Assembly: GCF_003667825.1 (NCBI RefSeq)
Contig: NZ_CP033043.1
Location: 4,472,501 to 4,536,500 of the forward strand
DNA from: Metabacillus litoralis
GTDB lineage: Bacteria > Bacillota > Bacilli > Bacillales > Bacillaceae
Length of the DNA stretch: 64,000 bases
Direction: 5' to 3'
Part shown: in pieces, positions 36,657-53,100 of the stretch
Position numbering within the stretch: the first letter of the stretch is position 1
Layout: each line of letters starts with the position of its first letter
Program-made: the position numbers and the translations under genes
The notes under the pieces: model-generated
Seen by the model: the letters and a program-made list of their open reading frames with translations, nothing else
Database searches by the model: none
Told to the model about the DNA's origin: nothing

Positions 36657-36711
36657 TTGAAATTGTTATGGTAAAATGAATGAAATAATTTGTACGAAAA
36701 GGAAGAACAAC

Positions 36712-38109
36712 ATGGCGAAAATTCAAGCACCTGTTATGAAAAATGAATATTACGATGTGACCTTTGAGGACTTAACGCATGAAGGTGCGGGTGTCGCAAA
36801 GGTAGAAGGCTTTCCGATCTTTGTTGAAAATGCACTGCCGGATGAACGAGCAAAAATAAAGGTAATCAAAGTAAACAAAGGCTTCGCGTTCGGACGACTA
36901 ATTGAGCTCCATGAACAAAGTAAAAACCGAATTGATGCACCTTGCCCAATCTATTCTCAATGCGGAGGCTGCCAGCTACAGCATCTTAGCTATGAAGGAC
37001 AGCTTGATTTTAAACGAAAACAAGTGGAGCAGGTCCTTGCTAGAATAGGCAAACTAGATTTAAACCAAGTAACTGTACATCCGACTTTAGGAATGGAGAA
37101 TCCTTGGAATTACCGAAACAAAGCTCAGGTTCCAGTAGGTGAACGTGAGGGCGGTCTAGTAGCTGGCTTTTATCAAAAAAGAAGCCATGACATCATTGAT
37201 ATGGAAAGATGTCTCATTCAGCAAGCTGAGAACGATGACGTTGTTCAAGCGGTGAAAACCATTTGTGAAAAACATGGCATTCGTGCTTATAACGAAGAAA
37301 AGCATAAAGGCTGGCTTCGTCATATTATGGTTCGGTATGGACTTGTGACAAAGGAAATCATGGTTGTATTTGTAACAAGAACGGCTGACTTTCCACATAA
37401 AAATGAGGTTATCACTGAAATAACAAATCAACTACCGCAAGTGAAGTCAGTTGTGCAAAATATTAATAACAAAAAAACAAATGTTATCTTTGGCGATGAA
37501 ACAAATGTGCTTTGGGGAGAAGAGTATATTTACGACAAAATTGGCGACGTAAAATTTGCCATATCTGCACGCTCTTTTTATCAAGTAAACCCAGAGCAAA
37601 CAAAGGTGCTATATGAAAAAGCATTAGAATACGCTGAATTAACAGGTGAAGAATCTGTAATCGATGCTTACTGCGGAATTGGGACGATTTCTTTGTTTCT
37701 TGCCCAAAAAGCCAAGAGAGTTTTTGGTGTGGAAATAGTTCCAGAAGCAATAGAAGATGCTAAGCGAAATGCAGAGCTAAACGGCATTTCTAATGCAGAG
37801 TTTGCAGTTGGTGAAGCAGAAGTTGTTATTCCTGAATGGTACAAGCAAGGCAATCAGGCAAACGTGATTGTCGTGGATCCTCCGCGTAAGGGCTGTGATG
37901 AAGCATTGTTGAAAACAATCTTGGATATGAAACCAAAGAAGGTTGTTTATGTTTCATGTAATCCTGGAACGCTTGCGAGGGATTTGCAGGTGTTGGAGTT
38001 AGGTGGATATAAGACGGTTGAAGTGCAGCCGGTGGATATGTTTCCGCATACGACGCATGTTGAGGTAGTATCGCAGATGATTTTAAAAGAAGAAGCAGGT
38101 TCCCGGTAA
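36712..38109 (+). CDS. rlmCD: 23S rRNA m5U methyltransferase RlmCD
   Basis: 465 aa, RumA/TrmA family. In B. subtilis this enzyme methylates U747 and U1939 of 23S rRNA. An N-terminal TRAM domain is followed by the iron-sulphur cysteines [14 protein letters not shown] (about residues 82-95), SAM-binding [14 protein letters not shown], and the catalytic region [11 protein letters not shown]. The start ATG 36712 (MAKIQAPV) follows AAAAGGAAG; an upstream in-frame ATG at 36676 lacks such a site. Its stop lies within the terminator stem. Confidence 0.95.
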
Positions 38110-41053: not shown

Positions 41054-42309
41054 ATGAAAAATCAACTGTCAAATTCATCACGTCTCTATGAGTATCGACT
41101 AGTCATTCTTATCTTTTTTGCATGGGGTTTCTTATTTTTAGATAGATCAGCATTGTCCTATATAATCCCTGCTATGGTGGGAGATTTGGAATTAACAACT
41201 GGGCAAGTTGGACAAATCAATATGTGGCAAACAATCGGATTTGCTATTTCAGGGCCTATAATTGGTATGATTTCTGACAAAACTGGAAAAAGAAAGCCAT
41301 TATTAATTGCAGCTATCCTGGCAACCGCTGTATTTTCTGCATTATCAGGGCTTGCAAACTCGTATCATTCTCTGTTAATCATACGATTCTTGGTCGGTGT
41401 ATGTGAAGGACCAATTTATCCGTTGGCTATGTTAATGATCGCTTCTGCATCTTCCCCGGGACGCTTTGGACGAAATGCAGGCATCGTCAATGCGGGAGTC
41501 GCTGTTATCGCTGTTGCTCTTGGTCCAATTCTTGTGACTCAGACTATTTCTATGCTTAATTGGCATTGGGCGTTTGTCATCATAAGTATTCCTAGTTTAA
41601 TTTTAGGATTACTAGTATATCTGTTTACTAATGAAATAAGTCCTGACAAAATCCACCAAACTGAGCAAAAGCAAAAAACAAGTTTTACCGACATTTTCAA
41701 ATATAGAAATATGTTCTCTGCATGCTTATTGCAATTTTTGGTATGGGAGGTATTTGGATTTTCTATTCATATGTACCACTATTTTTGACTTCGGTAGGGC
41801 AGATGTCTATTGAAAGAATGGGAATGATAATGTCTGCAATGGGGCTTTTGGGAATCCTTACAACGATTGGTATACCAATGTTTTCAGATTATTTTGGTAG
41901 AAAAAAGACATTGATTATTTTCGCCCTTTTAGGAGTATTAGCTCCACTTGGTTTATACTTTTTCCCGGTCAGTACTTTCGGGATTATCCTCTTAATGTTA
42001 TTCGGTGGAATGTTGGGAACTCTAACGCCTATTTTTTTTAATGTCATTCCTCAAGAAACGGTACCACCACATCTAACTGCAACTTCAGTCGCTATTATTA
42101 TTGGAGTGGGCGAAATCTTTGGTTCCTTTATTGTAGGGGGTTCAGGTGCTTTAGCTGACGTCCATGGTTTCTCTTTCGTCATGATTGTATCCGCGATAGC
42201 GACTTTCCTCGTAGCTATCATAAGTTTTGGACTTATTGAGACTAATCAAAGAGTCAAGAAATCCAGCATATCTACCGTTACCGTTGAAAAAATAGCCGAA
42301 ACAAAATAA
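41054..42309 (+). pseudogene. MFS transporter gene interrupted by a frameshift
   Basis: Two adjoining frames together encode one twelve-helix major facilitator. The first part (from ATG 41054, behind GAAAGGAAGG) contains helices 1-6 with the loop GMISDKTGKRKPLL; the second resumes in the -1 frame with IFGMGGIWIFYSYVPLFLTS and helices 7-12. The break maps to a T5 run at 41735-41739. One extra T would restore LLQFFGMGGIWIF without interruption. It is either a true inactivating deletion in a homopolymer or a sequencing error. The likely cargo is the substrate or product of the neighbouring amidase. Confidence 0.8.
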
Positions 42310-42438: not shown

Positions 42439-42903
42439 TTGTCATCGATTGGATTAGAATTTGTATTTCATGCGTATGTGACGATTAGCAAAGAATTAGA
42501 GATTGGCCCAGTCTCAACCGGTATTCGGAATATAGCACCGATAACAGGAGGAACTTTCGAAGGAAAAAACCTAAAAGGAATAGTTGTTCCAGGTGGAGCT
42601 GACTGGCAGTTAATTAGGGCAGATGGAATAATGGAAGTAGAAGCTAAATATACACTAAAGACAGATGACAACGCACTTATCTACGTAATGAACAACGGGA
42701 TCATAAACTTACAAGAACTTCCACCTACTGGTTATGCTAGAACTTGCCCAAAGTTTGAGGTTTCACATGACAAATACACTTGGCTGTGCAAATCACTGTT
42801 TGTAAGTACGATTACCCCTATGGTAGATGAAGCTACACCTATGACACTAGAAAATAAATCTATGCTAAGTGCCGTGTCTGTTAATTTTTACCGTGTAACG
42901 TAA
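42439..42903 (+). CDS. DUF3237 domain protein
   Basis: 154 aa, TTG start behind AGGAGGAG. The sequence GTFEGKNLKGIVVPGGADWQ, then LIRADGIMEVEAKYTLKTDD and a following VMNNGI, is typical of DUF3237, a small beta-barrel family often found beside catabolic genes for aromatic or lactone compounds. No catalytic activity is proven for the family as far as I know. It is probably co-regulated with the amidase and transporter genes; a terminator follows 210 bp later. Confidence 0.82.
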   Translation: MSSIGLEFVFHAYVTISKELEIGPVSTGIRNIAPITGGTFEGKNLKGIVVPGGADWQLIRADGIMEVEAKYTLKTDDNALIYVMNNGIINLQELPPTGYARTCPKFEVSHDKYTWLCKSLFVSTITPMVDEATPMTLENKSMLSAVSVNFYRVT

Positions 42904-43111
42904 AATGAGATATTTAACGGCGATGATACATCCATGTATTCAAGAAGGGTTGTAAATTAGTAGATCTTCAATTAGACAGTAATGTTTTAATAGTTTAATG
43001 TAACACTGTTTGCTTTGAAATGTAACATCTCTTTAGTTACCTCGGTTTGATTAGCAAAACAGCTTAAAGTGGATACGCACAATTCAATATCTTCTTGAAT
43101 GTTCTCTTTAT

Positions 43112-43140
43112 GGAGTGTAGCTTGATGCTCACTCCTTTTT
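43112..43140 (+). terminator. Terminator of the amidase module
   Basis: GGAGTGTAGC pairs with GCTCACTCC with one bulge around TTGAT, then TTTTT. The rest of the 42904-43310 stretch shows no gene. Confidence 0.75.
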
Positions 43141-43309
43141 ACTTTTAATGCATAATCATTTCAGAAGATTCATCTACAGCATCTATACCATAACCCGGAA
43201 GGTGTCCCAAAATCTATACTTATGACACCTTCGTTTATTTATCGGAATATTCAGTATTATTATTTCCGTATACCAATTATGAGAAAAGTATGATATATTA
43301 CTTAGGGCT

Positions 43310-43405
43310 ATATATCTAATTTAATATAGGCAAACTATTTGAAAAAATAGGACGCAAAACTATAGGGACTAAATACTAGACATAAGTATAAGTCAGCCAG
43401 TTGCA
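43310..43405 (+). promoter_or_regulatory. Cyclic di-GMP-I (GEMM) riboswitch aptamer
   Basis: The GEMM consensus is present in order: GGCAAAC, a hairpin CTATTT-GAAA-AAATAG closing a GNRA tetraloop, GACGCAAA, a tetraloop-receptor-like segment, a second stem (GACT with AGTC and ATACT with AGTAT) and CAGCCAGTTGC. A terminator hairpin follows at 43445-43474, and the next gene encodes a chemoreceptor. Boundaries are approximate. Whether ligand binding turns expression on or off cannot be read without folding. Confidence 0.9.
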
Positions 43406-43444
43406 TTTCATTCAATTACTACGGGGATTGTGTGATTCTTTTGG

Positions 43445-43474
43445 GCTACTTCTTATTGAAGTAGCTTTTTATTT
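43445..43474 (+). terminator. Expression-platform terminator of the c-di-GMP riboswitch
   Basis: GCTACTTC (43445-43452) pairs perfectly with GAAGTAGC (43458-43465) around TTATT, followed by TTTTTATTTTT. It is 40 nt after the aptamer. Confidence 0.88.
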
Positions 43475-43616
43475 TTAGGCTATTTTATAGCTTTATGTTG
43501 ATTTTTCTACTTTGTTGATTGAAGTGAATGGTATTAGACTCCCTGACTGTCAGCAAAAACGATTTCCTTCAGTGAAAGCACCAACCAAGTTTAACAAAGA
43601 TTATTTTTAAAAGAGT

Positions 43617-43643
43617 TAAGCAATTTGATGATATAGCCGATAG
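43617..43643 (+). promoter_or_regulatory. Candidate sigma-D (motility) promoter of the chemoreceptor gene
   Basis: TAAG (43617-43620), exactly 15 bp, then GCCGATAG (43636-43643). The sigma-D consensus is TAAA-N15-GCCGATAT, so there are two mismatches and perfect spacing. It lies between the riboswitch terminator and the chemoreceptor gene, providing a start that bypasses the riboswitch. Confidence 0.68.
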
Positions 43644-43712
43644 AATACTTGTAGCAATTTTTTGTTATTTCGCAATAGAATTTGATTAATAAGTTAAGGG
43701 AAGTGTACAACA

Positions 43713-45464
43713 ATGAAGAAATGGTATTCTAATATATCATTAAAAACAAAAAGTATTTTATTTAGTATCATCACGACTACTTTAGTTGCTATTTTAGTAA
43801 CGGGGGTAAGTTACTTTGTTAATTCTAAGTTTATGTTACAGAATCTTGTAACAGATGCTGAACAAACTGTTGAAACGTGGTCACAGGATATTGATCCTAA
43901 AGATGTAATGGAAGTAATGGAAACAGATGATGAGAGTAGTGAAGCTGCTCAGCGTTTGATCAGTCATTTTGATCAATTATCAAATTACCAACCTTCAGTT
44001 GCACAAGGTTATATCTTTGGTACCGAGCTGGAAAATGGTTCAGAAACGAGTTTAGTTGCTTCACCAACAGAATTATTAGACATACTTAAAGCGGAAGCGG
44101 ATTTAACAGTTGGGGATATGTATGGTCAGCCTGATAATATTGTCAAGCTAGTAAAGAAGCTTACGGCTGAAAAGGAAATAGTGGTTTCTGATATTTACTC
44201 AGATGGTTTAGGAACTTGGATTACAGTTGCCAAACCATATGTGGATGAAAATGGTGAGGTTTATGCTTATTACGGAATGGACTTTAATGCACAAAGCTTT
44301 GTCGATAGCCAAAGAAATATCTTAATGACTGTAGGAATTATTCTATTAATTGTCGTTTTAGTTATTGCTGTGCTGGAATATTTCTTATTAGGAAAACTAT
44401 ATAAACCGATCGGTGAGCTTGCTAGTGGGATCGAATCTGTCACAGCAGGTAATTACGATGTGAGATTAAAAGAGTCGAATGATGAGATAGGTAGGGTAGC
44501 AGTAAGCTTTAATGTGATGGTTGATAATATAAGAAGTTTAATTAATTCGATTGGATCTGCTTCGAAGAATACGTCAAGTAACTATGACTCATTGTTCACT
44601 TCTGTAAGTAATACTAGTGAAAAAATGGATCGTATTACTACTGACGTGTCAGAAATGTCAGGAAGATTTGAATCTCAAAGTGGATCTGCTTATGAGATTT
44701 CCTCTTCATTACAACAATTGTCTGCTGGAGTAGAGACAGTGGCTCGTAATATTTCTAATGTTAGTGAAGGATCGAAAGAAACTGAGAGTCTTGCAATGAA
44801 AGGGAGTGACTCAGTTGATCAAGTAGGAAAACAAATGGGATTGATTAATCAATCGTCTCAAAACTCCGAAAAACTTATTCGAAATCTTAATGAACGTTCT
44901 AATGAAATTCATTCGATTGTTGGTCTGATTACAAGTATTTCTGAGCAAACAAGTCTTTTATCCTTAAATGCTTCCATTGAAGCAGCAAGAGCAGGGGAGC
45001 ATGGGAAAGGATTTGCAATTGTTGCTGATGAAGTGAAAAAGCTAGCTGAACAATCAAAAGGTTCTGCAGAAAAAATTAAATCATTGATAGATTATATACA
45101 ACAAGAAACAGAAGAAGCTGTTATTTCAATTAATGATGGGGTCAAATACGCGAACGCTGGTGTGTCTCTTGTAAAAGAGACAGGAATTCTTTTTGCTGAT
45201 ATTCTTGATTCTGCGCGCAATGTGTCTGCTCAAATGGATGAAATATCTGCAGCAACAGAACAAATGTCTGCAGAAAATCAACAAATTACAGCTACTTTTG
45301 AACAGTTTACAGATTTAACAACACAAAATAGCGATACAGTTATTTCATTAACAGATAGTATCAAGGCCCAGAAGGTTTCATTTGATACAATTGTTGATTC
45401 GGCACAGGATATGAAAAAGGTAATTGATACTCTTGAAGAAGCTGTATCAACTTTAAAAGTATAG
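43713..45464 (+). CDS. Methyl-accepting chemotaxis protein
   Basis: 583 aa. Membrane helix 1 (about residues 12-34), an extracellular Cache-like sensing domain (about 35-205, with [10 protein letters not shown] and [20 protein letters not shown]), helix 2 (about 207-230), a HAMP domain and a long cytoplasmic coiled coil. The hairpin tip [19 protein letters not shown] binds CheA and CheW. It acts as a membrane chemoreceptor; the ligand is unknown. Upstream lie a c-di-GMP riboswitch with terminator and a sigma-D-like promoter; downstream is a terminator. Confidence 0.93.
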
Positions 45465-45492
45465 TACTTAAAATTCTTTATTATTCACTAGG

Positions 45493-45522
45493 CCTATAGG
45501 GAAAAAGTCTCTATAGGTTTTT
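45493..45522 (+). terminator. Terminator after the chemoreceptor gene
   Basis: CCTATAG (45493-45499) pairs with CTATAGG (45511-45517), then TTTTT. It separates the chemoreceptor gene from the synthetase gene, so the latter likely has its own promoter or depends on read-through. Confidence 0.75.
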
Positions 45523-45599
45523 GGTGCTAAAAACTTTGCAGAGGGATCATTTTAAAAACTAAGGTTATTTTCAAATAAATAAGTAGGATGTGTTTATAG

Positions 45600-48500
45600 A
45601 TGACAACATTAGTCAAACAAAAGCCTGTGAAGGTACTATCAGTAGAGGATGAGAACTTATGGTCAGGAATTAATCATACAGACCAATTTTTCCCTACTAA
45701 TATAGGCTTACATAATGTTTTTGTGGAAACAGCTACCATGTATCCAGAGCATATAGCTGTTTCAGATGGTCGAGATCGAACAATTACGTTTAAGGCTTTA
45801 GACGAGAAATCGAATATGGTTGCTAATTATCTGATTTCACAAGGAATTCGAATTGGCGATTACATTTCGGTTTTTATGGATCGAAGTATTGAAGCAATTA
45901 TTGCGATGCTAGGAGTTATGAAGTCTGGGGCAGTGTATGTGCCATTAACACCAGAAAATCCTGAGGAACGTAATCAATATATTATTAAGGATTCCTCGAG
46001 TAAGCTTGTACTAACATCTAAAGAACAAAAAGATATTTTAGCTAATTTAATGATAGAATCAGCCGTTCCTTATCTATCTATTGAAGATATTTCAGAAGAG
46101 AATACTGCGCCAACGGTCGTTGTTGAAAATTCTAACCTTGCTTATATTATATATACTTCAGGATCAACTGGTACGCCAAAAGGAGTAAAAATTCGCCATG
46201 AAAGCATTGTTAATTTTGGTTATGCATTGAAACGTGAATTTGCTATTTCTCCATCGGATGTATTAGCACAATTTTTTATGTTGTCTTTTGATGCCTCTTT
46301 TATTGAAGTGTGCACAATGATCTATAATGGCGCAAGATTACATTTCTTAACAAAAGAGGAACGTGTTGATGTGTCTGCATTTGCTGAAACTGTGCAGAAA
46401 TATGGAATTACCCATGTTATGGCTTTTCCAGTCACTGCATTAAAACAGTTTTCTACTTATGCAAATGAAGATGATACGAAAAAAACTCACTCCTTAAAAA
46501 TGATTGGTGTTGGAGGTGAAGCATTAACAGGTGAAGTGGTTCGCTTATTTCATAACAAATTTAAGCATGTTCAACTTGTTAATTTATATGGACCCACAGA
46601 AGCAACTGCTGCTGCCTCTTACTATCGAGTAGACGGGGAAAAGGATAGTAAAGTAGAAAATGTACCGATTGGAAAACCTTTTTCAAATTATAAGTTTTAT
46701 GTTGTAAATGATGATTTGGAGTTGAATCCAGTTGGGGTTGAAGGAGAATTGTTAATTGACTCCATTTCTGTTTCAGAAGGATATCATAACTTACCTGAAA
46801 AAACAGAAAAAGCATTTGTTAAAGTTCCTTATTCCGATCGAGTTGTTTATCGCACTGGTGATAGAGTGAAATTATTGCCATCTGGTGATATTGAGTTCTT
46901 AGGACGTGTTGATCTGCAAGTCAAAATAAGAGGCTATCGGATTGAATTAGGAGAAATAGAGAATAGAATGTTTAGAGCCGATTTTATTGAGGAGGGGGCA
47001 GTGGTTCCAAAGGAAGTAAATGGTGATAAAGTCCTTGTTGCTTACTACTCAATAAAAGAAGGTCATCGTGCTACAAAGAAAGAAGTTATAGATATTATTT
47101 CAGACGGTCTACCAAGCTATATGATTCCTACTTATTTTATTGAATTGCCTTTTATTCCATTGTCTCCTACACTTAAAGTCAATCGCAACCATTTAATTAC
47201 GTTACCACTAGAGAATTCAGCTTCATATGATGAGGATAAGAAGAAGCCTTCTAATAAAGTAGAAGCTAAGCTCCTGAAAGTGTGGCAAGAGGTCTTAGGG
47301 ATAATGAATATTGGGGTTGACGAAAACTTCTTTGAGTTAGGTGGTCATTCCCTTAAGGTATTAGGTGCGTTAACTCTTCTGAAGAAAGATTATAAATCAT
47401 TGAAAATAAATGATTTCTTTACGAATCCTACTATTGAGTCATTATCACAGTATATTTTAACAAATCAAACGAATGAAACGAACGTAAATGACTCTTTACA
47501 ATTTAATAAAAAAATTAAACTTATTGAGCATCCAATAACTTTATCTACAAATAAACAAGTTCAACTGAAAGAACAAACAACTATTCTTTTAACTGGAGCT
47601 ACAGGGTATTTGGGGTCTCATATTTTATTAGATTTGTTAAATGCTTCTACACATGTGATCTATGTATTAGTAAGAGCATCTAGCGAAGAAGAGGGATGGT
47701 CTAAGGTTCAATCAACATTAAATTACTATGCTACAACGGGATCACTGGATGATGAGAATATTCATAAGAGAATAAAGCTCCTTGTTGGAGATTTTAGTAA
47801 AGAGAATTTAGGGTTAAATGTGAAAGATCATAATAAATTGGGACAAATTGATTCAATTATTCATTGTGGTGCAGATGTACGCCATTTTGGGAGTGAAGAA
47901 TCTTTTACAATGTCCAATGTTGTAGGAACAGAAAATCTACTGCAAATTGCTAAAGATCAAGGATGTCGTTTCCACTATGTTTCAACGATCGGAATTCCGG
48001 AAGAACTGGCTTTAGAGGGATATTGGGACAAATTCATAACGTCTGAAAATATTTCAGATGCACCTGATCTTCCAAATCTTTATACGAACAGTAAATTAAA
48101 GTCTGAGAAACTAGTAGAAAAGTTTTATCATGAAGGCATACCAGTGACAATCTATCGACCAGGTAACGTAACTTGTCATTTTGAATCAGGTAAGTTCCAG
48201 ACAAACATTAATTCTAATGCTGTCTATCGCATGATTAAGAGTTTTATATTACTAGGTAAAGCTCCAAAGGTAGATGCAAATATGGATTTTGCGATGGTTG
48301 ATATTGCTAGTAAATCAATTGTTGCATTAGCTTTAGATGATCAATCTGTTGGAAAGGTTTTTCATATTTGTAATCCTCATAATGTGTCATATGCAGACAT
48401 GTTAAGCAGTATTAAGTCGTTTGGTTATCCTATTGAGCTAGTTGATCTAAACGTCTATGAGGACTGGTTATATAATGATAATCCGAAAAATCAAGAGGGA

Positions 48501-48695
48501 TTAGAGTTGGCGATGGCAGGATTAGAGGGTGATGGAGCAAAGAATTCACCTTTAGTATATGCATGTCCTGCTACAACAAATGCGCTTAATAAAAAGGGCA
48601 TTATCTTTCCTATTCCTGATGAGGATTTCATACATCGTATGTTAACACATGCGGTCGAAGTAGGTTTTTTACCTATTCCCAAAGAGATGGAATAG
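45600..48695 (+). CDS. Single-module NRPS-like carboxyl reductase (adenylation-carrier-thioester reductase)
   Basis: 1031 aa. Domains: adenylation (about 30-520) with A3 YTSGSTGTPKGV, A5 NLYGPTEAT, A7 YRTGDRVKL, A8 GRVDLQVKIRGYRIELGEIE and an A10-like TLKVNR lysine; carrier domain with NFFELGGHSLK (phosphopantetheine Ser584); NAD(P)H reductase domain starting ILLTGATGYLGSH (about 661-673) with a later YTNSKLKSE catalytic Tyr/Lys. No condensation domain. It should activate one carboxylic or amino acid, hold it as thioester and release it as aldehyde or alcohol, like alpha-aminoadipate or carboxylic acid reductases. Asp in FDASFIEVC hints at an amino acid substrate. Its transferase partner gene follows 1 bp later. 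Confidence 0.9.
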   Translation: MTTLVKQKPVKVLSVEDENLWSGINHTDQFFPTNIGLHNVFVETATMYPEHIAVSDGRDRTITFKALDEKSNMVANYLISQGIRIGDYISVFMDRSIEAIIAMLGVMKSGAVYVPLTPENPEERNQYIIKDSSSKLVLTSKEQKDILANLMIESAVPYLSIEDISEENTAPTVVVENSNLAYIIYTSGSTGTPKGVKIRHESIVNFGYALKREFAISPSDVLAQFFMLSFDASFIEVCTMIYNGARLHFLTKEERVDVSAFAETVQKYGITHVMAFPVTALKQFSTYANEDDTKKTHSLKMIGVGGEALTGEVVRLFHNKFKHVQLVNLYGPTEATAAASYYRVDGEKDSKVENVPIGKPFSNYKFYVVNDDLELNPVGVEGELLIDSISVSEGYHNLPEKTEKAFVKVPYSDRVVYRTGDRVKLLPSGDIEFLGRVDLQVKIRGYRIELGEIENRMFRADFIEEGAVVPKEVNGDKVLVAYYSIKEGHRATKKEVIDIISDGLPSYMIPTYFIELPFIPLSPTLKVNRNHLITLPLENSASYDEDKKKPSNKVEAKLLKVWQEVLGIMNIGVDENFFELGGHSLKVLGALTLLKKDYKSLKINDFFTNPTIESLSQYILTNQTNETNVNDSLQFNKKIKLIEHPITLSTNKQVQLKEQTTILLTGATGYLGSHILLDLLNASTHVIYVLVRASSEEEGWSKVQSTLNYYATTGSLDDENIHKRIKLLVGDFSKENLGLNVKDHNKLGQIDSIIHCGADVRHFGSEESFTMSNVVGTENLLQIAKDQGCRFHYVSTIGIPEELALEGYWDKFITSENISDAPDLPNLYTNSKLKSEKLVEKFYHEGIPVTIYRPGNVTCHFESGKFQTNINSNAVYRMIKSFILLGKAPKVDANMDFAMVDIASKSIVALALDDQSVGKVFHICNPHNVSYADMLSSIKSFGYPIELVDLNVYEDWLYNDNPKNQEGLELAMAGLEGDGAKNSPLVYACPATTNALNKKGIIFPIPDEDFIHRMLTHAVEVGFLPIPKEME

Positions 48696-48696
48696 T

Positions 48697-49368
48697 ATGA
48701 GGGATGTAACAAACCCATTAATTTATACGGCAGAAGCAACCTATAGTAAGATGATATATGATGAGTTATACCGTCATGCCTCTTTTTATGAAAAGAAGTA
48801 TCTTGAGAAATATCAGCTTTTTAGGCAAAAATATGATTCATTATTAGGAATCTTTTTACTTAAAATGATTCAAAAAGATGAGTTAGATAGCTCGTATCCT
48901 ATAACACATACAGATAGAGGGAAACCGTATTTTGTTGGATATAGTGGGGAGATCTCGATTTCCCATAGTGACGGTACCGTTGCAGTAGGTCTGTCATCTG
49001 GTAAATTAGGCATTGATATTGAAAGTGAATTAGTGGATATTGATGGTAGTTTATTTTTATCAGAGCATGAGCAAATTATCATCCAGCAACAAAAAGACAG
49101 GGATCTGTTAACAGAGCTATGGGTGTTAAAAGAGTCCTATGTTAAAGCATTAGGCTGTGGCTTCCTTTTAGATCCAACAACGATTTCTTTCTATATGATA
49201 GATAATGAATGGCATGTTAATGGAAGTAATTTCTCCTTTTCCTTGACAACTTTACCGAATGAAAAGATACTTTCTATTTGTAAAGAGCTTAAAACGGATG
49301 ATCGAGTTGTTGCTATAGATGAGGAAGAGTTATTAGATTGGATCGTAGGAACTAGGTATAGATTTTAG
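48697..49368 (+). CDS. Sfp-type 4'-phosphopantetheinyl transferase
   Basis: 223 aa. The superfamily motifs are present: GKPYF, ISISHSDGTVAVGLSSGKLGIDIE (magnesium-binding Asp and Glu in GIDIE) and LWVLKESYVKALGCGF (Glu and Lys of the third motif). It transfers phosphopantetheine from CoA to the carrier serine of the preceding synthetase, with which it forms a two-gene operon (1-bp gap). The N-terminal half is diverged from B. subtilis Sfp, consistent with a dedicated partner. Confidence 0.9.
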   Translation: MRDVTNPLIYTAEATYSKMIYDELYRHASFYEKKYLEKYQLFRQKYDSLLGIFLLKMIQKDELDSSYPITHTDRGKPYFVGYSGEISISHSDGTVAVGLSSGKLGIDIESELVDIDGSLFLSEHEQIIIQQQKDRDLLTELWVLKESYVKALGCGFLLDPTTISFYMIDNEWHVNGSNFSFSLTTLPNEKILSICKELKTDDRVVAIDEEELLDWIVGTRYRF

Positions 49369-50693: not shown

Positions 50694-50743
50694 TAGTTTT
50701 GGGTATGAAAAGTGTAGAATGCAAAAGTTAAAGGGGAATTTGT

Positions 50744-51540
50744 ATGCTTTTATAAAGGTAGGCAGTGTAAAAGTATACGAAAAATCCAAAAAAAGGTAAG
50801 ATTGACCACGAAAAGGACCAAAATTGCAAGAGATATCCACTTGTGTATCGTTTTTCAGTGAAAAAGTGACAAAAGCATGCGTAAAAGAGAAATGTGAATG
50901 CTTTTATAAAGGTAGGCAGTATAAAAGTATACATTAAATCCAAAAAAAGGTAAATATGACCACGAAAAGGACCAAAATTGCAAGAGATATCCACTTGTGT
51001 ATCGTTTTTCAGTGAAGAAGTGACAAAAGCATGCGTAAAAGAGAAATGTGAATGCTTTTATAAAGGTAGGCAGTATAAAAGTATACGTTAAATCCAAAAA
51101 AAGGTAAAAATGAAAGCGAAAGGGATAAAAATTGTAAAAAACACCCATTTACGTATCGTTCTTCAGTGAAAAAGTTATAATTGCATACGAAAAAGAGAAA
51201 TGTGAATGCTTTTATAAAGGTAGGCAGTATAAAAGTATACGTTAAACCCAAAAAAAGGTAAAAATGAGGGCGACAGGGATAAAAATTGTAAAAAACACCC
51301 TTTTTCGTATCGTTTTTCAGTGAAAAAGTGATAATTGCATACGAAAAAGAGAAATGTGAATGCTTTTATAAAGGTAGGCAGTAGGCAGTATAAAAGCATA
51401 CACATAAACTCCAAAAAAAAGGAAAAGTTAACCACATAAAGGACTAAAATTGTAAAAAACATCCATACGCGTATCGTTTTTCAGTAAAAAAGTGACAAAA
51501 GCATACGAAAAAGAGAAATGTGAATGCTTTTCTATAGAAA
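50744..51540. repeat. Tandem array of 154-bp repeats (five units plus a partial sixth)
   Basis: The marker ATGCTTTTATAAAGGTAGGC starts units at 50744, 50898, 51052, 51206 and 51360, each 154 bp apart; a shortened start lies at 51524. The last interval is 164 bp because GTAGGCA is duplicated and a few bases are added. Conserved blocks: unit start, CCAAAAAAAGGTAA, GTATCGTTTTTCAGTGAAAAAGTG and GCATACGAAAAAGAGAAATG. Units 1 and 2 are closest to each other, as are 3 and 4. The length is not a multiple of three, so any frame shifts each unit: noncoding. Confidence 0.95.
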
Positions 51541-52905: not shown

Positions 52906-53006
52906 TTGTATTGTAAATGACTCATTGCTCTAAGAAAAAACATGTAAGCTTTCCTAACACCCTTGTTGAGAAGGTTTAGTTATTGCTATATTTTTAGATT
53001 GTAGCG

Positions 53007-53100
53007 ATGTTTTCTAGGGTTCCGCAATGAAGAATTGGCTGGTCCAAGAGAAAACACATGTGGATACACATGTACACGGAGGGATAAAAGCCCGGGAGGA
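53007..53100 (+). promoter_or_regulatory. Guanidine-I (ykkC) riboswitch aptamer
   Basis: The ykkC consensus reads clearly: TCTAGGGTTCCGCA, then CTGGTCCAAGAG, a variable stem (ACATGTGGATACACATGT), and ACACGGAGGGATAAAAGCCCGGGAGGA. The downstream genes resemble those of guanidine-I rather than the ppGpp or PRPP subtypes, which control amino acid or purine genes. The 3' end overlaps the terminator stem, so guanidine binding should permit read-through. Confidence 0.92.

Follow-up and report, generated by a model that had tools for sequence, protein, structure and literature searches.

A Predicted c-di-GMP-I Riboswitch and a Conserved Sigma-D-like Promoter in Series ahead of a Chemoreceptor Gene of Metabacillus litoralis

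Introduction

Riboswitches that respond to c-di-GMP are found ahead of motility and chemotaxis genes in several bacteria. Among the closest described systems is Bc1-mcpE of the Bacillus cereus group, in which, as in the locus reported here, a c-di-GMP-I aptamer is followed by termination and then by a gene for a methyl-accepting chemotaxis protein (MCP). According to the available part of that report, Bc1 is frequently found before MCP genes, but its leader has two terminators, and from their reporter data the authors conclude that no further promoter lies in the 5' UTR (PMC11218506). The locus from M. litoralis, in contrast, has one terminator that could be found and a conserved sigma-D box behind it.

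Inner promoters that bypass a riboswitch are known from tfoY/Vc2 of Vibrio cholerae, where the P1 and P2 transcripts carry the riboswitch and the inner promoters do not depend on it. In the accessible text, however, Vc2 is described as switching translation OFF, and VpsR, an activator that binds c-di-GMP, acts at the inner promoters (PMC7371385); the present locus has a transcription terminator and a flagellar sigma factor in these two roles. The cmrRST operon of Clostridioides difficile also combines a c-di-GMP riboswitch transcript with independent downstream promoters, but the excerpted account gives a class II riboswitch, an invertible promoter, and a CmrR-activated promoter, and the genes encode response regulators and a kinase instead of a chemotaxis-type receptor (PMC8844915). 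In the flgB leader of the same organism a c-di-GMP riboswitch lowers read-through into motility genes; an invertible switch follows, and the portion of the source at hand names no sigma-D promoter after the terminator (PMC8844915). In Bdellovibrio the flagellar sigma programme and a c-di-GMP riboswitch take part in one lifestyle switch, but merRNA is described in the extract as an RNA made in massive amounts, with no gene conserved downstream of it, and no FliA promoter is listed for it there (PMC3627812).

A search of the full-text literature, which took in few subscription papers, returned no description of a flagellar sigma factor serving as a bypass directly behind the terminator of a chemoreceptor riboswitch. 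The parts themselves (the RF01051 aptamer, c-di-GMP-I riboswitches before MCP genes, and inner bypass promoters) are known, and the flagellar sigma bypass would be the unreported element. Here we describe this locus in a 64-kb stretch of M. litoralis DNA (the window), compare it with its relatives, and weigh the ways in which it may operate.

Results

The features of the locus, in window coordinates, are the following.

43291-43299, + strand: probable upstream promoter, extended -10 TGATATATT, no -35 recognised
43319-43408, + strand: predicted c-di-GMP-I (GEMM-I) riboswitch aptamer, RF01051 74.1 bits, E 1.1e-12
43390-43398, + strand: candidate antiterminator strand, the aptamer 3' strand AAGTCAGCC, complementary to the terminator 5' arm
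43408-43435, + strand: linker hairpin in the aptamer-terminator interval, 8 of 9 pairs in the own leader
43443-43477, + strand: predicted intrinsic terminator with T-rich tail, stem 43443-43467
43590-43616, + strand: A/T-rich conserved stretch directly 5' of the -35 box, 22 of 27 columns invariant in four leaders
43617-43643, + strand: predicted sigma-D (FliA) promoter TAAG-N15-GCCGATAG, start predicted near 43650
43696-43703, + strand: Shine-Dalgarno-like AAGGGAAG, in a conserved block (43690-43712, 20 of 23 columns)
43713-45464, + strand: MCP of 583 aa, ATG at 43713, PF00015 160.8 bits, PF00672 (HAMP) 48.2 bits
45493-45522, + strand: terminator-like hairpin behind the MCP gene, from the fold of 45480-45530

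Receptor Gene and Its Neighbours

The signalling domain (PF00015) and the HAMP domain (PF00672) of the MCP both score over their cut-offs; for its N-terminal (sensor) part there was no Pfam match at an E-value of 0.001 and no PDB sequence match at an E-value of 1. Close orthologs are found in M. crassostreae (91% over residues 1-230), in R. marisflavi (Rossellomorea, 86%), and in B. suaedae (Bacillus, 91%). A further relative, G458 (L113), appears to have lost much of the sensor part internally; the match stops at residue 97 and the open frame is 402 aa. The receptor is patchy in the genus, its N-terminal part being matched in 3 of 21 genomes.

The segment 45480-45530 folds at -19 kcal/mol (z -4.6; none of 200 shuffles equalled it), and the hairpin within it suggests that the MCP gene is a one-gene unit, although the consensus terminator scan did not flag 45493-45522. 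Cotranscription of the MCP with the NRPS-like gene at 45600 was considered and rejected because this hairpin lies between them. The NRPS-like protein (adenylation, carrier, and thioester reductase domains) and a phosphopantetheinyl transferase occupy 45600-49368 directly behind the MCP gene. The same pair is behind the MCP in M. crassostreae (L076) and is absent from the roughly 5 kb behind it in R. marisflavi and B. suaedae. In these two species (L074, L075) the leader and MCP stand behind a gene that we take to be RlmD/RumA-like, with no intervening ORF of 100 aa. A similar gene is found in the window at 36676-38109, where LuxR, amidase, MFS, and DUF3237 genes intervene before 43713. Elsewhere in the window are an MFS transporter frame split into two overlapping ORFs by a frameshift or sequencing error (41054-42309), a tandem repeat of period 154 with 5.1 copies and 87% matches (50730-51531), a purine riboswitch aptamer (2775-2876, 84.0 bits), and a guanidine-I riboswitch aptamer (53003-53100, 82.6 bits).

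Aptamer and Upstream Promoter

A GEMM aptamer had been proposed in the first-pass annotation, and a covariance search with RF01051 bears this out: the match at 43319-43408 covers model positions 1-87 fully and scores 74.1 bits, where the gathering score is 35. In the alignment to RF01051 the core is intact, with GGCAAAC (including GGCAAA), a GAAA tetraloop of the GNRA type, GACGCAAA, and AGCCAGTTGC. Judged by its sequence, 43319-43408 is a c-di-GMP-I aptamer, with c-di-GMP as the predicted ligand. The ligand-specificity position is G20 in Vc2 numbering, an A at this position going with cGAMP; the GGC of GGCAAAC, in which the equivalent position would probably lie, is intact. The orthologous leaders score 67.8 (M. 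crassostreae), 66.1 (R. marisflavi), and 69.7 bits (B. suaedae).

In the leader alignment, which comprises the own sequence, R. marisflavi, B. suaedae, and M. crassostreae (entered twice, under two ids), TGATATATTAC (43291-43301) is unchanged, and the sequence just 5' of it varies. The motif resembles an extended -10 of the housekeeping type and would probably be recognised by sigma-A.

Terminator and Candidate Antiterminators

The hairpin that had been called a perfect terminator is present at 43443-43467, with 10 pairs (4 of them G-C), a loop of 5, and a T-rich tail, but it is not perfect, as 2 of the 10 pairs are G-U. It was the one terminator found in a scan of 42900-44000, against a shuffle mean of 0.2. 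Across all five orthologs 8 of the 10 pairs are standard, and one of these has changed on both sides. One pair of the linker hairpin has likewise changed on both sides (U-G to A-U); this hairpin is broken in G458.

The candidate antiterminators vary among the orthologs, and covariation supports none of them throughout. The duplex between AAGTCAGCC and the terminator 5' arm has a predicted energy of -8.8 kcal/mol, and its pairing is only partly kept in the orthologs. Another candidate, AT-b, is complete (9 of 9 pairs) in R. marisflavi, B. suaedae, and G458, but it is interrupted in the own leader and M. crassostreae, where 6 of 9 pairs form. AT-c, in which the linker pairs with the terminator 3' arm, was rejected as a general antiterminator; one of its pairs has changed on both sides, but no more than 3 of the 6 are formed in every one of the five sequences.

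Sigma-D Box

The sigma-D consensus of B. subtilis is TAAA-N15-GCCGATAT. A TAAG-N15-GCCGATAG element had been noted just before the chemotaxis gene, and it lies where described: TTAAG at 43616-43620 is followed after 15 nt by GCCGATAG at 43636-43643, 69 nt 5' of the MCP gene. The published FliA consensus for Bdellovibrio, as given in the excerpt, is TTAAG-N16-CCGATA (PMC3627812). This string occurs once in the window, at the promoter, with 0.02 occurrences expected from shuffles; with one mismatch allowed there is 1 match against 1.21 expected. Across the 5.23-Mb genome the looser motif TAAR-N14-16-GCCGATA gives 14 matches and the reversed control also gives 14. Genome-wide motif enrichment was thus discarded as evidence, and conservation among orthologs was used instead. 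Eight of the 14 matches are within ORFs of at least 150 aa and six are outside; four of these six have a gene start at most 200 nt downstream. The genes are those for a CheW-receiver protein (CheV-like), yvyF (assigned by TIGR03826, 168.9 bits against a cut-off of 124.15), an N-acetylmuramoyl-L-alanine amidase, and the MCP of the window, all four of which are, by analogy with B. subtilis, genes of the sigma-D type.

Boxes were also scored with our own weights on the B. subtilis consensus, to a maximum of 18 points. From 30 MCP loci of the genome, 28 upstream regions were scored (two starts were outside the locus, and 6 of the 28 regions are shorter than 300 nt). Five reach 15 points, the MCP of the window and L056 being highest at 16.5; in another of the five, L072, the box is 292 nt upstream. 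One of four flagellin-domain genes has a box that reaches 15 points (L077, 15.0). The genome encodes FliA/SigD (TIGR02479, 276.1 bits, cut-off 189.6), as do all 11 of the 11 relatives tested, above the cut-off. By motif alone, the case for a sigma-D promoter would be weak to moderate.

Conservation carries the assignment further. In four leaders (own and three orthologs) TAAG is invariant in 4 of 4 columns, GCCGATA in 7 of 7, and the -10 box in 7 of 8, against 5 of 15 in the spacer, the length of which is kept at 15 nt in all four. When a 4+15+7 design was moved along these leaders from the terminator to the start codon, 1 of 202 placements was wholly invariant, and this was the promoter itself. 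The background at 43483-43589 has 43 of 107 columns invariant. The more conserved A/T-rich stretch at 43590-43616 is possibly an UP element or a regulator site. In the alignment of G458 there is a gap at the original TAAG -35, and TAAC stands exactly 15 nt before GCCGATAT; this box scores 17.0 of 18 points. None of 400 shuffles reached the observed score in the own leader or in any of the four relatives. Exact TAAG-N15-GCCGATA is found in 11 of 254 loci examined; ten are copies of the four leaders, and the other (L033) is inside an ORF. The sigma-D promoter proposed at first pass is therefore supported beyond the motif, the conservation of its boxes in orthologs being the evidence that it exceeds chance.

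Distribution among Relatives and in the Genus

The upstream regions of the own receptor and 19 relatives were compared, a strong box being one for which 0 of 400 shuffles are as good and a weak box one for which 16 to 22 of 400 are. An aptamer and a strong sigma-D box are found together in 5 of 20 regions (own, M. crassostreae, R. marisflavi, B. suaedae, and G458). Five have the aptamer without a strong box (L016, L083, L084, L086, L089), two a strong box without the aptamer (L087, L091), and eight neither; the weak boxes are those of L083, L018, and L090. Thus, among the ten family members with an aptamer, the sigma-D box is missing in four and weak in one. Standing outside this set, as more distant matches, are L019-L021 (no aptamer), L095-L108 (where the pattern found no aptamer core and the best box scored 13.0), L109-L112, and L114-L118. 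The five regions with both elements look like one group of close orthologs and may have a single origin. In G458 decay has brought the aptamer down to 39.1 bits, yet a sigma-D box as good as the others is still present.

RF01051 has 13 matches in the own genome and 168 summed over 21 genomes of the genus. From the 149 of these 168 loci that were examined, 14 had no core by regular expression, 19 had no downstream ORF by our rule, and 116 were scored, in 3 of which the region was too short to score. Among the 116 leaders, that of the window is the sole one with a strong sigma-D site (16.5 of 18; the next reaches 14.0), and although an MCP-like gene is downstream in 7 of the 116, the strong box is found only in that of the window. 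The M. crassostreae ortholog is outside this set; seen apart (L015, L076), it has a strong sigma-D box. Within the genus, as scored, the stacked arrangement is therefore a trait of this receptor rather than of the riboswitch class.

Four of the 13 matches in the own genome stand before genes with c-di-GMP turnover domains, EAL (L005) or GGDEF (L007, L008, L013), pointing to feedback on that turnover. A second MCP, this one with a dCache domain, lies behind the match at L012. At L011 (positions 1501-2200; genome C1:2451422 onward) a c-di-GMP-I riboswitch is followed by two genes. The first is SinI-like, exceeding the cut-off of PF08671 with 46.3 bits but falling short of that of the NCBIfam SinI model; the second is SinR-like and has both an HTH_3 and a SinI domain. 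Similar SinR-like genes are behind c-di-GMP-I matches in L131, L223, and L225. A c-di-GMP riboswitch before sinI is already listed for Bacillus methanolicus in the part of that source available (PMC4342826).

Folding Calculations

The direction of switching was calculated from partition functions in which the helices of aptamer and terminator were forced and a ligand bonus (kcal/mol) was added, a treatment that describes equilibrium only. The probability of the terminator, P(terminator), rises from 0.159 without ligand to 0.998 at 12 kcal/mol in R. marisflavi, and from 0.010 to 0.845 with the ligand bonus in B. suaedae. It is flat in M. crassostreae (0.998 to 0.997) and in the own leader, where equilibrium folding gives no ligand-dependent switching (0.995-0.996 whatever the bonus). 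In G458, with its degenerate aptamer, it is 0.000, and 0.006 at 15. Where equilibrium folding shows switching among these five orthologous leaders, the modelled direction is OFF. As P(terminator) in the own leader and in M. crassostreae exceeds 0.99 whether or not ligand is present, switching in these two would need to be kinetic. When the own leader was folded as a growing prefix, the aptamer 3' strand paired transiently with the terminator 5' arm and was displaced once the 3' arm was made; in this model the pairing is OFF wiring, but of a kinetic kind.

A cruder automatic ON/OFF test was applied to 21 leaders, 19 with a terminator found and two without. The 19 gave ON-like, OFF-like, and flat outcomes. 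The rise in R. marisflavi was repeated (0.324 to 0.989), and L012, the other riboswitch-MCP leader of the genome, rose from 0.140 to 0.981; for B. suaedae a different hairpin was chosen and the change was from 0.004 to 0.067 only. ON-like results were obtained for L009 (0.53 to 0.25) and L003 (0.80 to 0.37, its terminator call being doubtful), and so the folding method is not bound to answer OFF. The automatic picking of terminators is unreliable, having selected the linker hairpin for the own leader and an aptamer-overlapping hairpin for L003.

Discussion

Sequence analysis identifies a c-di-GMP-I aptamer, a terminator, a conserved sigma-D box, and a receptor gene in a row, in a genome that encodes FliA. 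The explanation that we tentatively prefer, at somewhat under an even chance, is that the gene has two starts, one sigma-A-like and gated OFF by c-di-GMP, the other used by sigma-D and bypassing the gate. The two starts, the OFF direction of the gate, and the effect on regulation are proposals, which run as follows. Transcription from about 43307 would produce a leader with aptamer and terminator; binding of c-di-GMP to the aptamer would favour the terminator at 43443-43467, and transcription would stop. Transcription from about 43650, 3' of the terminator, would produce a short leader with neither element. As this start is placed past the terminator, the receptor would be independent of c-di-GMP in sigma-D-active cells and made at any c-di-GMP level; with the flagellar sigma factor inactive, it would be made only at low c-di-GMP.

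We count in favour of OFF the rise of P(terminator) in R. marisflavi, in B. suaedae, and, by the automatic test, in L012. Counted against it, or against two starts, are the flat results for the own leader and M. crassostreae, the ON direction of the Bacillus precedents, the absence of the box from 4 of the 10 aptamer-bearing family members and its weakness in one, and the single box among four flagellin genes. For the own species we rank OFF at somewhat less than one half, ON at a quarter, and an inert switch at about a fifth.

The first alternative, an ON switch, is doubtful but has precedent. Here c-di-GMP would open the terminator, sigma-D would serve swimming cells, and the riboswitch would serve cells with high c-di-GMP. 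Bc1, before mcpE, is said in the available text to turn on a B. subtilis reporter, its first terminator unfolding as c-di-GMP rises (PMC11218506), and Bc2 is reported, in the part of the source at hand, to be ON in B. thuringiensis (PMC4933901); ON-like outcomes are also within reach of the automatic folding test in the own genome (L009, L003). The five orthologous leaders, however, give no ON behaviour, two being flat, two OFF, and the degenerate one practically never terminated, and among the candidate antiterminators only AT-c, a weak linker pairing, does without aptamer strands; pairing through such strands, as in the others, is OFF wiring. This bears on the two layers of control that the first-pass annotation had read from the locus. 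Their anatomy stands; the suggested production of the receptor in both swimming and sessile cells would need an ON switch, whereas folding points to OFF in two orthologs and the precedents to ON. If the direction is OFF, both layers would point the same, motile way.

A slightly less probable alternative is that the riboswitch is nearly inert in the own species, the terminator forming regardless of ligand and sigma-D providing the working promoter. The constant P(terminator) of the own leader fits this account, as does G458, where the aptamer has decayed and the sigma-D box is kept; for the genes behind Bc1, the excerpted report gives expression unchanged by c-di-GMP in the native host (PMC11218506). 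On the other hand, the own aptamer scores 74.1 bits with its core intact and is retained in close orthologs, and equilibrium folding ignores co-transcriptional kinetics. It is very improbable that the sigma-D-like box arose by chance or serves another factor: the loose motif equals its reversed control and one-mismatch matches in the window are at chance, but the boxes and their spacing are conserved while the spacer changes, G458 has an equivalent box despite loss of the old -35, and the fit to the published FliA consensus is exact where 0.02 is expected.

Both c-di-GMP and the flagellar sigma factor are main inputs to the decision to swim or settle, and here they appear to meet in series within one 400-nt leader, so that the dominant input could be read with one reporter. 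The relatives of this receptor provide natural versions with one input, the other input, or both.
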